Positions 8,712 through 24,368 of a DNA stretch of 36,770 nucleotides are shown one piece after another. Made by a program: the position numbers and the translations under genes. Position 1 is the first letter of the stretch; each line of letters starts with the position of its first letter. The stretch is from Candidatus Nitrosopelagicus sp. (GTDB taxonomy: Archaea; Thermoproteota; Nitrososphaeria; Nitrososphaerales; Nitrosopumilaceae). The notes beneath the pieces were generated by a model. The model made no database searches and was not told the DNA's origin. It worked only from the letters and a program-made list of their open reading frames with translations. The stretch is taken from the NCBI GenBank assembly GCA_028343215.1, contig JAOLYB010000011.1, positions 1-36,770 on the forward strand, in the 5' to 3' direction.

Positions 8712-9512
8712 ATGGTGTCAGATACGCAAGAATTGCCAGAAACTGGTGAGATTGTAATTGCAACAGTAACAAAAATTAGTGATCATGGTGCTTACGTTAC
8801 ACTAGATGAATATAATAAAATTCAAGGATTTTTACATGTTTCAGAAATTGCTCCAGGGTGGGTACGTAAAGTAAACAAGTATGTTAGAGAAGGAGAAAAG
8901 AAGGTATTACTAGTAAAAAAAGTCGAAAGCGGTAGAAAAGAAATTGATCTATCATTAAAACAGATTTCAAAAGATCAAAGAAAAAAGAAACTTCTTGATG
9001 TTAAAAGATTTGAAAAAGAACAGGGAATTTTAAAAAATATTCAAGAGAAATCAGAATTAACTACAAAACAAATTGAAGATTTAGAAGATAAATTTTTATC
9101 AAAATATGATTCAGTTTATGATGCAATGTTGAATATTGCAATTAAAGGTAGTGCTGAAATAAAAGATTTGAAACTACAGAAGAAAGTAATGACAACTATT
9201 GAAGATATTTGTTCAAAAATGAAACTTCCATCAGTAGAGTTGAGAGGAATTTTAGAAATTTCAAATAATCAATCTAACGGAGTTGAACTAATCAAAAAAA
9301 CACTAAAAGATGCAGAGAATGTTGAAGATGCAAAAATAGAGATAACATATTTGGGCGCACCAAAATACAGATTAAGTTTAGTTTCTCAAGATTTTAAAAC
9401 TGCTGAAAAATCATTGAAACCAATTTTAGAGAAAATTGAGAAAAGTGTGAAAAAGCAAAATGGAATTTATATTTTTACACGAGAAGAATCAATAAAAATT
9501 GGTGAAGGATAA
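8712..9512 (+). CDS. eif2a: Translation initiation factor aIF2 subunit alpha
   Basis: This 266-residue protein has an N-terminal S1/OB RNA-binding domain (residues 11-86: GEIVIATVTKISDHGAYVTL, GFLHVSEIAPGWVRKV, REGEKKVLLVKKV). A helical middle domain follows, and then an alpha-beta C-terminal domain (EITYLGAPKYRLSLVSQDFK) that binds the gamma subunit. As part of heterotrimeric aIF2 it delivers initiator Met-tRNA to the small ribosomal subunit. The stop TAA overlaps the next ATG by 1 nt (TAATG), which couples it to nop10, the usual archaeal neighbour. Confidence 0.96.
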   Translation: MVSDTQELPETGEIVIATVTKISDHGAYVTLDEYNKIQGFLHVSEIAPGWVRKVNKYVREGEKKVLLVKKVESGRKEIDLSLKQISKDQRKKKLLDVKRFEKEQGILKNIQEKSELTTKQIEDLEDKFLSKYDSVYDAMLNIAIKGSAEIKDLKLQKKVMTTIEDICSKMKLPSVELRGILEISNNQSNGVELIKKTLKDAENVEDAKIEITYLGAPKYRLSLVSQDFKTAEKSLKPILEKIEKSVKKQNGIYIFTREESIKIGEG

Positions 9513-9664
9513 TGCGTTTTCAATTAAGAAAATGTACCGAATGCGGAGCATATACACTAAAAGAAATTTGTAAAAAATGTGATCAAGCTACTAAAAGTGT
9601 TCATCCTGCAAAATTTTCTCCAGATGACAAATATCTAAGATACAGAATTGCCGATAAAGAATAA
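9512..9664 (+). CDS. nop10: Ribosome biogenesis protein Nop10
   Basis: This 50-residue protein begins MRFQLRKCTECGAYTLKEIC and has a zinc-binding pattern Cys8-x2-Cys11-x8-Cys20-x2-Cys23, then a tail with HPAKFSPDDKYLRYR, the Nop10 signature. Nop10 is a core protein of box H/ACA ribonucleoproteins and works with Cbf5, Gar1 and L7Ae in RNA-guided pseudouridylation. Its ATG overlaps the stop of aIF2-alpha by one base. It ends 3 nt before the stop of the convergent aldo/keto reductase gene. The size and motifs are diagnostic. Confidence 0.95.
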   Translation: MRFQLRKCTECGAYTLKEICKKCDQATKSVHPAKFSPDDKYLRYRIADKE

Positions 9665-10760: not shown

Positions 10761-10781
10761 CTTCAATTGTATCTTCATCAA

Positions 10782-10943
10782 TTGGATTTATTCAAAAAAA
10801 AATCTAAAACTACAACAGATTTAGTGTGTAAAATATGTAAGATGGAATTCTCTACTTCTGAAAGAACAATGAGGCATATGATTAAAGCGCATTCTAAACC
10901 ACAGAAAGTAAAGAAAAGACTCGGTAGTGGAAAATATGATTAA
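10782..10943 (+). CDS. C2H2 zinc-finger microprotein
   Basis: This small gene encodes 53 residues. Residues 16-37 form one classical C2H2 finger, Cys-x2-Cys-x12-His-x4-His (VCKICKMEFSTSE through HMIKAHS), between a lysine-rich N-terminus and a basic tail (KPQKVKKRLGSGK). It is probably a nucleic-acid-binding protein, but the target is unknown. The start is inferred: TTG at 10782 sits about 27 nt after a good TATA box. It faces the next - strand gene with a 14-nt gap. The intact Cys/His spacing and promoter make it likely to be real despite its size. Confidence 0.7.
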   Translation: MDLFKKKSKTTTDLVCKICKMEFSTSERTMRHMIKAHSKPQKVKKRLGSGKYD

Positions 10944-16990: not shown

Positions 16991-17242
16991 TCATGCTTTT
17001 TTCATAAATTCAGAGCACGGACAGGTTACTACCATACATTGCCGTTTATCTCCAAGATGTTTTGATTTCAAGTGTCGGCAAGCTATATTTTGACAAGTAT
17101 TTTTTTCAATTTGTTTTTTTACAATGGATGCTGCAATTTTATTTGCCTCTTCTTTAGATAATTTTTTTTTGTCAATGTAATAATGGACAACTTGGGACCA
17201 TAATTTATCCACTTGAAATGGAGTGACATTCTCCCACATCAT
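16991..17242 (-). CDS. Small Cys/His-rich protein, possible zinc-binding
   Basis: This 83-residue protein has a helical N-terminal half (VDKLWSQVVHYYIDKKKLSK and EEANKIAASIVKKQIEK). The compact Cys/His-rich C-terminus (residues 49-77) reads Cys-x4-Cys-x-His-x5-His-x6-Cys-x5-Cys-x-Cys, likely a small zinc site. I do not recognise the family. A TATA-like tttatttatg on the minus strand near 17267-17276 is about 28 nt from the ATG at 17242. It is convergent with the Fe-S photolyase gene, 1 nt apart. A nucleic-acid-binding or metal-handling role is only a guess. Confidence 0.62.
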   Translation of the reverse strand: MMWENVTPFQVDKLWSQVVHYYIDKKKLSKEEANKIAASIVKKQIEKNTCQNIACRHLKSKHLGDKRQCMVVTCPCSEFMKKA

Positions 17243-20113: not shown

Positions 20114-20275
20114 ATGACAGATCCAATTTGTAATTTATGTGAAAGAAAACTTTCTGACCATACATACGAAGAATCTATCAAATGTGCTATGGAATTAATC
20201 AAACAAGGACACAAAAAAATTGGAATGGGTCAACATCGTCTACGACAAACAATGTCAAAGGATAATTCTACGTGA
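20114..20275 (+). CDS. Small Cys-containing microprotein
   Basis: This 53-residue ORF begins MTDPICNLCERKLSDHTYEE, then SIKCAMELIKQG and a basic tail with HRLRQTM. A Cys6-x2-Cys9 pair plus His15 and Cys24 could form a zinc site, with a helix after it. I recognise no family. Its last 21 nt overlap the 3' end of the convergent membrane-protein gene. The Cys-x2-Cys knuckle and coherent composition favour a real gene, but there is no well-spaced TATA box for this ATG. Confidence 0.5.
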   Translation: MTDPICNLCERKLSDHTYEESIKCAMELIKQGHKKIGMGQHRLRQTMSKDNST

Positions 20276-23301: not shown

Positions 23302-23715
23302 TTATTTTTTAGTTTCTTCTTTAGGTGCGTCTTCTGCTGCAGCTTCAGTTTCTGCTGGAGGTGCTTCATCTTTGATTTCTCCATCATATTTGCAATTTAC
23401 TTGGAATATTTCGTCAGAAACTGTGTTTCCTCTGACAAGTTTTCTTTTTCTCAGTCCTTTTTCAGTATCCTGTAGTCCAACTCCTTTTGCTAGTAAAACT
23501 CGTTTTCTGGCCATCCCATGAAGGTCTCCTCTCATTGGAACACCAGACTTGTCACTACCACCGGTAATTTTCAATTTACCGGCTAATCCTACAATTGCAG
23601 CATCAGTCTCTGCACCAACTATTAGACCCATGAGTGGATTTGCATCTCCTTCTTTGAGTTCTTTGGTGATAGATTTGCCTTTAACATCTGAAATTGTCAG
23701 TTTGAAATTAGCCAT
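23302..23715 (-). CDS. rps6e: Ribosomal protein S6e
   Basis: This 137-residue protein shows the archaeal S6e pattern: KLTISDVKGKSITKEL, LMGLIVGAETDAAIVGLAGK, KITGGSDKSGVPMRGDLHG and RKRVLLAKGVG, followed by GLRKRKLVRGNTVSDEIFQV and an N-V-N-like VNCKYDG. It is a small-subunit ribosomal protein. The last 25 or so residues are an acidic, Ala/Glu-rich tail (EAPPAETEAAAEDAPKEETK), unusual for a ribosomal protein and possibly a flexible extension. It is monocistronic and divergent from the zinc-ribbon gene at 23807. Confidence 0.95.
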   Translation of the reverse strand: MANFKLTISDVKGKSITKELKEGDANPLMGLIVGAETDAAIVGLAGKLKITGGSDKSGVPMRGDLHGMARKRVLLAKGVGLQDTEKGLRKRKLVRGNTVSDEIFQVNCKYDGEIKDEAPPAETEAAAEDAPKEETKK

Positions 23716-23806: not shown

Positions 23807-23929
23807 ATGAAAGAAAAAGTCGAGTGCCCAAGATGTAATGAAATAATGCTCGACGTGCAGGCATGTCATCTTATCTGTCCTAGATGTGGATCGCATATGG
23901 ATTGTTCAGATAAAGGATCAGTTTGGTAA
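23807..23929 (+). CDS. Zinc-ribbon microprotein (40 aa)
   Basis: The protein is essentially one zinc ribbon: VECPRCNEIMLD, then ACHLICPRCGSHMDCSDKG, with two CPRC knuckles (Cys7/Cys10 and Cys24/Cys27) and extra cysteines at 20 and 33. The start at 23807 is chosen because the zinc ribbon begins right after it and the longer upstream frame is antisense to S6e. I cannot assign a target; such ribbons occur in RNA polymerase and ribosome-associated proteins. Its stop abuts the stop of the next zinc-ribbon gene with no base between them. Confidence 0.7.
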   Translation: MKEKVECPRCNEIMLDVQACHLICPRCGSHMDCSDKGSVW

Positions 23930-24106
23930 TTAAAAACCAGGTCTATCAGGAATATAATCAGTAGCCATGTTAAGTGCTTGATCTTTCATGATTTCAAGAT
24001 ATTTTTCATATGATGCCTCAAATTTACAATGGGGACAAGTGACTTTTGTAATTTCATCGTTTACTTTTGCAACGTTTTCACATTCAGGACATCTTGCATC
24101 AAGCAT
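23930..24106 (-). CDS. Zinc-ribbon microprotein (58 aa)
   Basis: This 58-residue protein has two zinc knuckles, Cys6-Pro-Glu-Cys9 and Cys24-Pro-His-Cys27, then a helix (ASYEKYLEIMKDQALNMATD) and the end YIPDRPGF. It looks like a single-ribbon protein with a C-terminal helix; no named family is recognised. The ATG at 24106 lies about 26 nt from a TATA box (24127-24136), fitting a leaderless mRNA. It is tail-to-tail with the 40-residue ribbon gene, with no spacer. Confidence 0.72.
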   Translation of the reverse strand: MLDARCPECENVAKVNDEITKVTCPHCKFEASYEKYLEIMKDQALNMATDYIPDRPGF

Positions 24107-24126
24107 GTCTCTGATAACAATCCAAA

Positions 24127-24136
24127 GTATATAATT
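24127..24136 (-). promoter_or_regulatory. TATA box for 58-aa zinc-ribbon gene
   Basis: On the minus strand this reads aattatatac, centred about 26 nt upstream of the ATG at 24106. Confidence 0.5.
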
Positions 24137-24162
24137 CTGATCGAGTGATTTGATTGTAAGAT

Positions 24163-24172
24163 TTTATATAAA
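24163..24172 (+). promoter_or_regulatory. TATA box for the 24192 microprotein gene
   Basis: The palindromic tttatataaa is centred about 25 nt before the ATG at 24192. A GGAG at 24181-24184 also lies 7 nt before the ATG, so either a leaderless start or a short leader with a Shine-Dalgarno site is possible; promoter spacing favours leaderless. Confidence 0.5.
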
Positions 24173-24191
24173 ATAAAGCAGGAGTAGTTTC

Positions 24192-24368
24192 ATGAGTTAT
24201 AATGAAATTGCAGAAACTTTTTCAGAGTATTCTAAAGTAAAATCAAAAAATTGCCAACATCTAATTGAATTATTTGAGCAAGCAATGATTCAGATGCAAG
24301 AAGAAGAAGAAATTATACTGGTTCAACATGAGAATAAACCTGTAAAAAAGAAAAAATTGGTTCAGTAA
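24192..24368 (+). CDS. Short helical protein (58 aa)
   Basis: The protein starts MSYNEIAETFSEYSKVKSKN. A predicted amphipathic helix (CQHLIELFEQAMIQMQEEEE) and a basic tail (KPVKKKKLVQ) follow. It has no signal peptide or membrane segment, and I recognise no family. A strong TATA box at the leaderless distance and good coding composition support it. It is convergent with the C39-like/TPR gene, 9 nt apart. Confidence 0.62.
   Translation: MSYNEIAETFSEYSKVKSKNCQHLIELFEQAMIQMQEEEEIILVQHENKPVKKKKLVQ

Follow-up and report, generated by a model that had tools for sequence, protein, structure and literature searches.

The window analyzed here, a stretch of 36,770 nucleotides, is one contig of a 1.06-Mb draft archaeal genome that, among named organisms, is closest to Candidatus Nitrosopelagicus and other Marine Group I thaumarchaea. 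Three small genes, called P1, P2, and P3 below, lie close together in it beside a ribosomal protein gene that we take to be S6e. The features of the locus are as follows.

23302..23715, minus strand: gene for an S6e-like ribosomal protein, a conserved neighbor that is divergent from P1 and downstream of P2

23770..23790, plus strand: TATA-like TTTAAT box, conserved in the genus

23807..23929, plus strand: P1, a 40-aa zinc-ribbon protein with the pattern CPxC-x9-CHxxCxxCG-x4-CSDKGxxW, ending in Trp

23930..24106, minus strand: P2, a 58-aa protein of zinc-ribbon type (C6, C9, C24, C27), 5' of the S6e gene and codirectional with it

24107..24191, no strand assigned: 85-nt putative promoter region between the divergent P2 and P3, in which each gene is preceded by a TATA-like box facing outward

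24192..24368, plus strand: P3, a 58-aa, genus-restricted protein without Cys pairs, in which an acidic stretch is followed by a Lys-rich C terminus

The original prediction had claimed that three genes of 40, 58, and 58 codons occupy this region without a spacer between the first two, and that their intact Cys spacing and well-placed TATA boxes suggest that they are functional. The three open reading frames (ORFs) are indeed intact at those lengths, and the stop codons of P1 and P2 abut exactly (TAA followed directly by TTA at 23927-23932). TATA-like AT-rich boxes, which are putative promoters, are present and conserved before all three genes: TTTAAT lies ~28 nt 5' of P1 in 13 of 13 loci of the genus, TTATATA lies 5' of P2 in the window and seven relatives, and a TTTTATATAA/TTTTAAATAA-like box lies 5' of P3, likewise in the window and seven relatives. 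A search of related genomes, one of the proposed checks, gave matches to P1 in 28, to P2 in 38 (a count that includes some weaker paralogues), and to P3 in 9 of the 61 relatives' genomes searched, those with P3 all belonging to the genus. A dN/dS comparison had been proposed as well; we computed pN/pS among close relatives and found purifying selection on each gene, with pooled values of 0.10 for P1 (10 sequences), 0.08 for P2 (10 sequences), and 0.24 for P3 (8 sequences).

The Cys residues bear out the claim of intact spacing. In 74 P1 sequences, C7 is conserved at 99% and C10, C20, H21, C24, C27, and C33 at 100%; the tail from D32 to G37 is conserved at 99 to 100% and W40 at 99%, with Trp as the last residue in 73 of the 74. 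All four Cys residues of P2 (C6, C9, C24, and C27) are 100% conserved in 81 sequences. Loss of the Cys pairs in close relatives had been named as the result that would overturn the prediction, and that objection fails because the Cys residues of P1 and P2 are nearly invariant. P1, P2, and P3 are thus real conserved microprotein genes, more than chance ORFs, and both P1 and P2 belong to the zinc-ribbon type and are conserved among Nitrososphaeria archaea. None of the three receives a convincing name from a curated model. The label "regulators" that had been attached to the three proteins is unproven and goes too far. Nor are the genes one unit, because they differ in age, place, and spread.

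The absent spacer between P1 and P2 is ordinary for this genome. Over 313 kb of the genome, the gap between convergent ORFs, counting only those of at least 100 aa, has a median of -4 nt (n = 57 pairs), and 18 of the 57 pairs overlap by exactly 4 nt, which corresponds to overlapping stop codons. The idea that the P1/P2 junction is a special regulatory device was considered and rejected because convergent genes here usually overlap or touch and because the sole tight control pair that could be followed is just as fixed (gap of -4 nt in 8 of 8 loci; two reference loci). The remaining control pairs have gaps of ~160 nt and are poor controls because these gaps, by eye, hold Nop10.

The further microproteins that had been reported for the window are also there, as ORFs at 9512-9664 (the site named Nop10 in the prediction), 10767-10943, 16991-17242, and 20114-20275. 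The second of these encodes a 58-aa protein with a single C2H2 finger, found with its paralogues in 37 of 61 genomes and often in two to four places in each. The third encodes a Cys/His microprotein of 83 aa, with matches in 26 of 61 genomes and conservation across the window's family, and the last encodes a 53-aa, genus-restricted Cys microprotein (22 of 61 genomes). P2 and P3 are ordinary additions to this large class of proteins.

P2 is an old neighbor of S6e. The S6e gene lies beyond P1 and is codirectional with P2, P1 being placed between them on the opposite strand, and the P2-S6e adjacency is also kept in loci of archaeal families f2, f3, and f8. P2 scores 28.6 bits against IBR_1 (PF22191; gathering score, 27), and we read this match as a ribbon cross-match because it covers only positions 5 to 30 of the 47 in this half-RING model and because P2 has four Cys residues. 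The match to DUF5817 (PF19134) is colinear, over 6 to 48 of 57 positions, and falls below the gathering score (19.8 versus 31 bits). Profiles of P1 and P2 gave no convincing match among PDB sequences, the best matches of the P2 profile being to designed zinc fingers, in which no individual stretch scored high enough to pass. The predicted P2 structure is a low-confidence model with a mean pLDDT of 60 that places a C-terminal helix at residues 33 to 47, and a structural search with it was uninformative. A scan of viral contigs for P2 yielded 86 stretches with the pattern and no relative among them.

P3 is placed between P2 and the next gene beyond. Upstream of P2, a tRNA-Gly(CCC) gene was seen in 10 of 11 loci scanned (L071-L073, L076, L080, L086, L120, L074, L078, and L113). 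The single P3-bearing locus scanned (L061) has no tRNA there and the window has no tRNA gene, so that P3 occupies the place of the tRNA gene. P3 may have been acquired late or may have arisen locally.

P1 has a different history. A class-level profile search found matches in 223 of 300 genomes, including 176 of the 213 good ones, leaving 37 good genomes without a match; the matches grow weak in the distant families of the class. In a phylum sample of 300 genomes, every match listed at E < 1e-12 comes from the order to which the window belongs, and matches outside the order are weak (E of 5e-8 or worse) and mostly lie within much longer ORFs. Gene order was followed at 80 named P2 loci, the best 80 of 179, and there P1 is tail-to-tail with P2 in 73. 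The gap between the two is 0 nt in 59 of these loci, 1 nt in 10, and 3 nt in 1, with gaps of 34, 40, and 184 nt in the other three. The other seven P2 loci of this set lack P1. P1 is found elsewhere, away from S6e, in archaeal families f2 and f10. P1-less loci mostly keep a short P2-S6e gap of ~45 to 52 nt, while one of them (L120) keeps ~170 nt. At one further locus (L153; archaeal family f1, genus g3), P2 and S6e are present and a P1-like stretch is degraded and contains a stop. P1 is old as well, yet its location differs in some families and it has been lost from some lineages. Because it was not found in the 37 good genomes and in 7 of the best 80 P2 loci, cells can evidently do without it, which sets it apart from the core factors of transcription or translation.

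The predicted model of P1 (mean pLDDT, 81) is zinc-ribbon-like with three short strands, and this modeled fold together with the two invariant CxxC/CxxCG knuckles classes P1 as a zinc-ribbon protein. The best structural matches of the model are RNA polymerase Rpb9/TFS-type ribbons and ribosomal eL43, all at Z < 4, and VIA-align of the model found nothing at Z of 5 or more. No named family in Pfam or NCBIfam takes P1 over its cutoff; transcription factor S (TIGR01384), for example, gives 17.2 bits against a cutoff of 64.75. A PHROGs search with P1 gave E values of 0.0014 or worse at best, to families of unknown function, and Rfam gave no match at gathering score.

What sets P1 apart is its presence in viruses. 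A scan of IMG/VR with P1 found 40 contigs, and a second scan with an alignment of the viral sequences found 69. The first scan was seeded with the motifs H[LM]DCSDK and QACH[ML][FI]C and the second with H[LM]DCSDK and CH[LM][IRF]CxNCG, and the viral ORF pattern required three Cys; core conservation in the viral sequences is partly built in because both seeds and pattern require the core, while C7/C10 and the final W lie outside the seeds. One contig (L323) has no readable P1 ORF and was left out of the counts (68 of 69). The six-Cys pattern is kept in 67 of the 68 viral ORFs, with the seeds requiring part of this core, and the proteins end in Trp in 61 and in DCSD in 7. The truncated forms ending in DCSD (L316 to L322) resemble the form in archaeal family f2, both being without the KGxxW tail. 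Host and viral P1 sequences are too short for a tree to resolve, although one group of 35 unites 34 of 40 viral sequences with a single member from archaeal family f8.

Pfam searches with ten proteins from four of the P1-bearing viral contigs identified a prohead protease, terminase by both its N-terminal and its C-terminal domain, two MCM proteins, a RadA/Rad51 protein, and one that is RNase H-like, and four of the ten had no match; these hallmark genes were seen on the contigs examined, not on each of the 69. The viral RadA is over one NCBIfam RadA equivalog cutoff and under another. The flanks of the 69 contigs contained no P2, S6e, P3, or other tested window neighbor. Hallmark genes on the contigs, close kin in hosts, and purifying selection (pN/pS of 0.11 for nine viral P1 sequences of group A, described below) mark P1 as a virus-borne host gene, an AMG-like cargo. 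The P1 family is common to archaea and to tailed viruses that very probably infect Nitrosopumilaceae, and P1 itself is a host-type zinc microprotein recurrently carried by viruses. Searches of known phage records gave no match to P1 or viral P1, and a plasmid search gave one match only, in a TFIIB-family gene at an E value of 0.7. We found no report of P1-like virus cargo in the literature, including the accessible portions of PMC6563490, PMC11849493, PMC8115048, and PMC12254263, and make no claim that it is unpublished. PMC6563490 lists arCOG08677 as a Zn-ribbon family common in thaumarchaeal mobile elements; this may or may not be the P1 family.

The first 40 viral contigs fall into group A (n = 15), group B (n = 24), and one single contig. 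In all 15 group A contigs, P1 lies 28 to 32 nt directly behind viral gene f2, whose ~407-aa product has no Pfam match and is the putative major capsid protein, an assignment based on its position near the prohead protease. In group B, a small conserved viral gene, f6, lies upstream of P1 in 14 of the 24 contigs. One record from each group (G582 and G592) share 31 of 96 ORFs by BLASTP, with f2 at 75% identity. A second Cys-rich viral microprotein directly follows P1 in three contigs (L233:5117-5362, L246:5124-5363, and L221:5108-5299) and overlaps the end of P1 in L221 and L233.

The same sites also hold amoC. AmoC (PF04896) is over its cutoff in 3 of the 40 records, many of which are fragments. 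Compared with the copy in G592, one of the remaining copies shows 94% identity and the other 98%, and all three look archaeal. In G592 and G604, amoC lies between viral gene f2 and an f3-like gene, which is the P1 slot of group A. In G604, amoC is preceded in this capsid-side slot by a Cys-rich ORF, and L258:6687-6911 is a Cys-rich ORF in that position, between the putative capsid gene and amoC. In G584, amoC lies between an f6-like gene and P1, and 14 nt separate its stop from the start of P1. These amoC copies, MCM, and RadA are the pointers to the host on P1 contigs, and by these sequences the viruses appear to infect Nitrosopumilaceae, that is, ammonia-oxidizing archaea. A conserved viral secreted protein gave only weak low-identity matches as a host signal, in 8 of 200 genomes.

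As to what P1 does, we infer, as a tentative proposal somewhat short of probable, that it is a zinc-ribbon adaptor in transcription or translation that viruses supply anew. P1 would fold around one zinc held by C7/C10 and C24/C27, and the invariant tail C33-S-D-K-G-x-x-W-COOH together with the C20-H21 pair would dock it on a partner in transcription or translation. The cellular protein might act as a constitutive adaptor, and the viral copy, sometimes behind the capsid gene, would keep or redirect the host transcription or translation machinery during infection. P2 could be another zinc-ribbon adaptor, distinct from P1 and linked to S6e through gene order, and P3 a young accessory gene of the genus. 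The S6e neighborhood and the weak structural neighbors favor a role of P1 in gene expression. Its loss from some good genomes and its location away from S6e in archaeal families f2 and f10 speak against this role, and the fold matches, besides being weak, are those to be expected of any zinc ribbon. The capsid-side slot does not point to information processing because the same slot holds amoC, a metabolic gene.

The cargo sites bring up another reading, in which P1 is a metabolic or stress accessory of ammonia oxidation, handling metal or redox or acting as a soluble regulator of AMO, and viruses carry it as they carry amoC, to keep the host energized. The two genes occupy the same two cargo sites and lie 14 nt apart in one virus, P1 has the spare Cys residues C20 and C33 beyond its four ligands, and AmoZ of Nitrosocosmicus is reported to have a C-terminal zinc ribbon (PMC10030591). 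Host P1, however, lies by S6e and not by amo genes, amoC was found in only the three P1 records noted above, and P1-like genes also occur in families that may or may not oxidize ammonia. On balance, we consider this reading unlikely.

We also hold it improbable that P1 is a generic zinc-finger microprotein like HVO_2523, with pleiotropic control over lifestyle and stress genes, and that viruses acquired it by chance. The HVO_2523 family (NF041914) is the nearest NCBIfam model; 56 of 68 P1 members match it at E <= 0.01, and its listed matches in the window's family are mostly the P1 loci themselves. Deletion of HVO_2523 has pleiotropic effects, altering growth on glycerol, biofilm formation, and swarming, as stated in the accessible part of PMC6562870, and a weak likeness to such a protein would fit many roles. 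Against this, P1 scores 21.5 bits where the cutoff is 60, none of 101 genomes of the class has a match over the cutoff, the match (residues 6 to 35 of 40) stops short of most of the CSDKGxxW tail, and retention under selection in viruses speaks against chance uptake.

The 15 contigs in which P1 follows the putative capsid gene at 28 to 32 nt would also suit a structural or packaging protein of the virion, with the host copy an old viral gene kept by the cell; this is very unlikely, as P1 lies downstream of f6 and away from the capsid gene in 14 of the 24 group B contigs, and host P1 is order-wide, with a location that most members of the window's family share. The idea that the P1-bearing contigs are misclassified host fragments, IMG/VR being able to hold host DNA, is scarcely credible given the terminase, prohead protease, and common virus gene order, and flanks devoid of tested window neighbors.

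In a broader and quite doubtful picture, P1 would be an unrecognized control element of archaeal ammonia oxidizers, linked physically or functionally to ammonia monooxygenase or to the gene expression machinery that sustains it. P1 and amoC would then be interchangeable cargo at the same two sites in viruses of marine ammonia-oxidizing archaea, which would use them to keep the energy metabolism and gene expression of the infected host running. Much of the nitrification in the ocean is the work of ammonia-oxidizing archaea, and to our knowledge little is understood of what the genes of their viruses do. The carriage of P1 by viruses whose hosts apparently oxidize ammonia is what makes it worth attention. 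Its retention by viruses in several genome contexts, including the amoC slot, suggests something that these viruses need to supply, and, in a setting of mostly uncharacterized genes, it is a small protein that can be expressed and tested. It also shows that virus cargo can include microproteins that most annotation would pass over for their shortness.

Several known systems bear comparison with P1. Like P1, HVO_2523 of Haloferax volcanii is a single small protein with two CxxC knuckles, and P1 residues 6 to 35 align to positions 2 to 30 of the 33 in its model. P1 differs in its invariant DCSDKGxxW tail, its virus-borne relatives, and the confinement of its high-scoring members to Nitrososphaeria, and it reaches only about a third of the cutoff score. 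The N-terminal zinc ribbon of the Rpb9/TFS type and the eL43 ribbon have the ribbon arrangement predicted for P1, but at Foldseek E values of >= 0.7 and with no above-cutoff sequence support; unlike the Rpb9/TFS ribbons, P1 has no second domain. The amoC of marine Thaumarchaeota viruses is, like P1, a host gene at the same viral cargo sites, yet it encodes a known enzyme subunit, whereas P1, small and soluble, is a ribbon protein not known to be part of an enzyme. The available portion of PMC8115048 places an AMG hotspot of T4-like phages next to the capsid gene gp23, and the viral P1 site similarly has a cargo gene beside the major (here putative) capsid gene. The T4-like viruses are phages of bacteria, while the viruses that carry P1 have archaeal-type genes and a zinc microprotein as their cargo.
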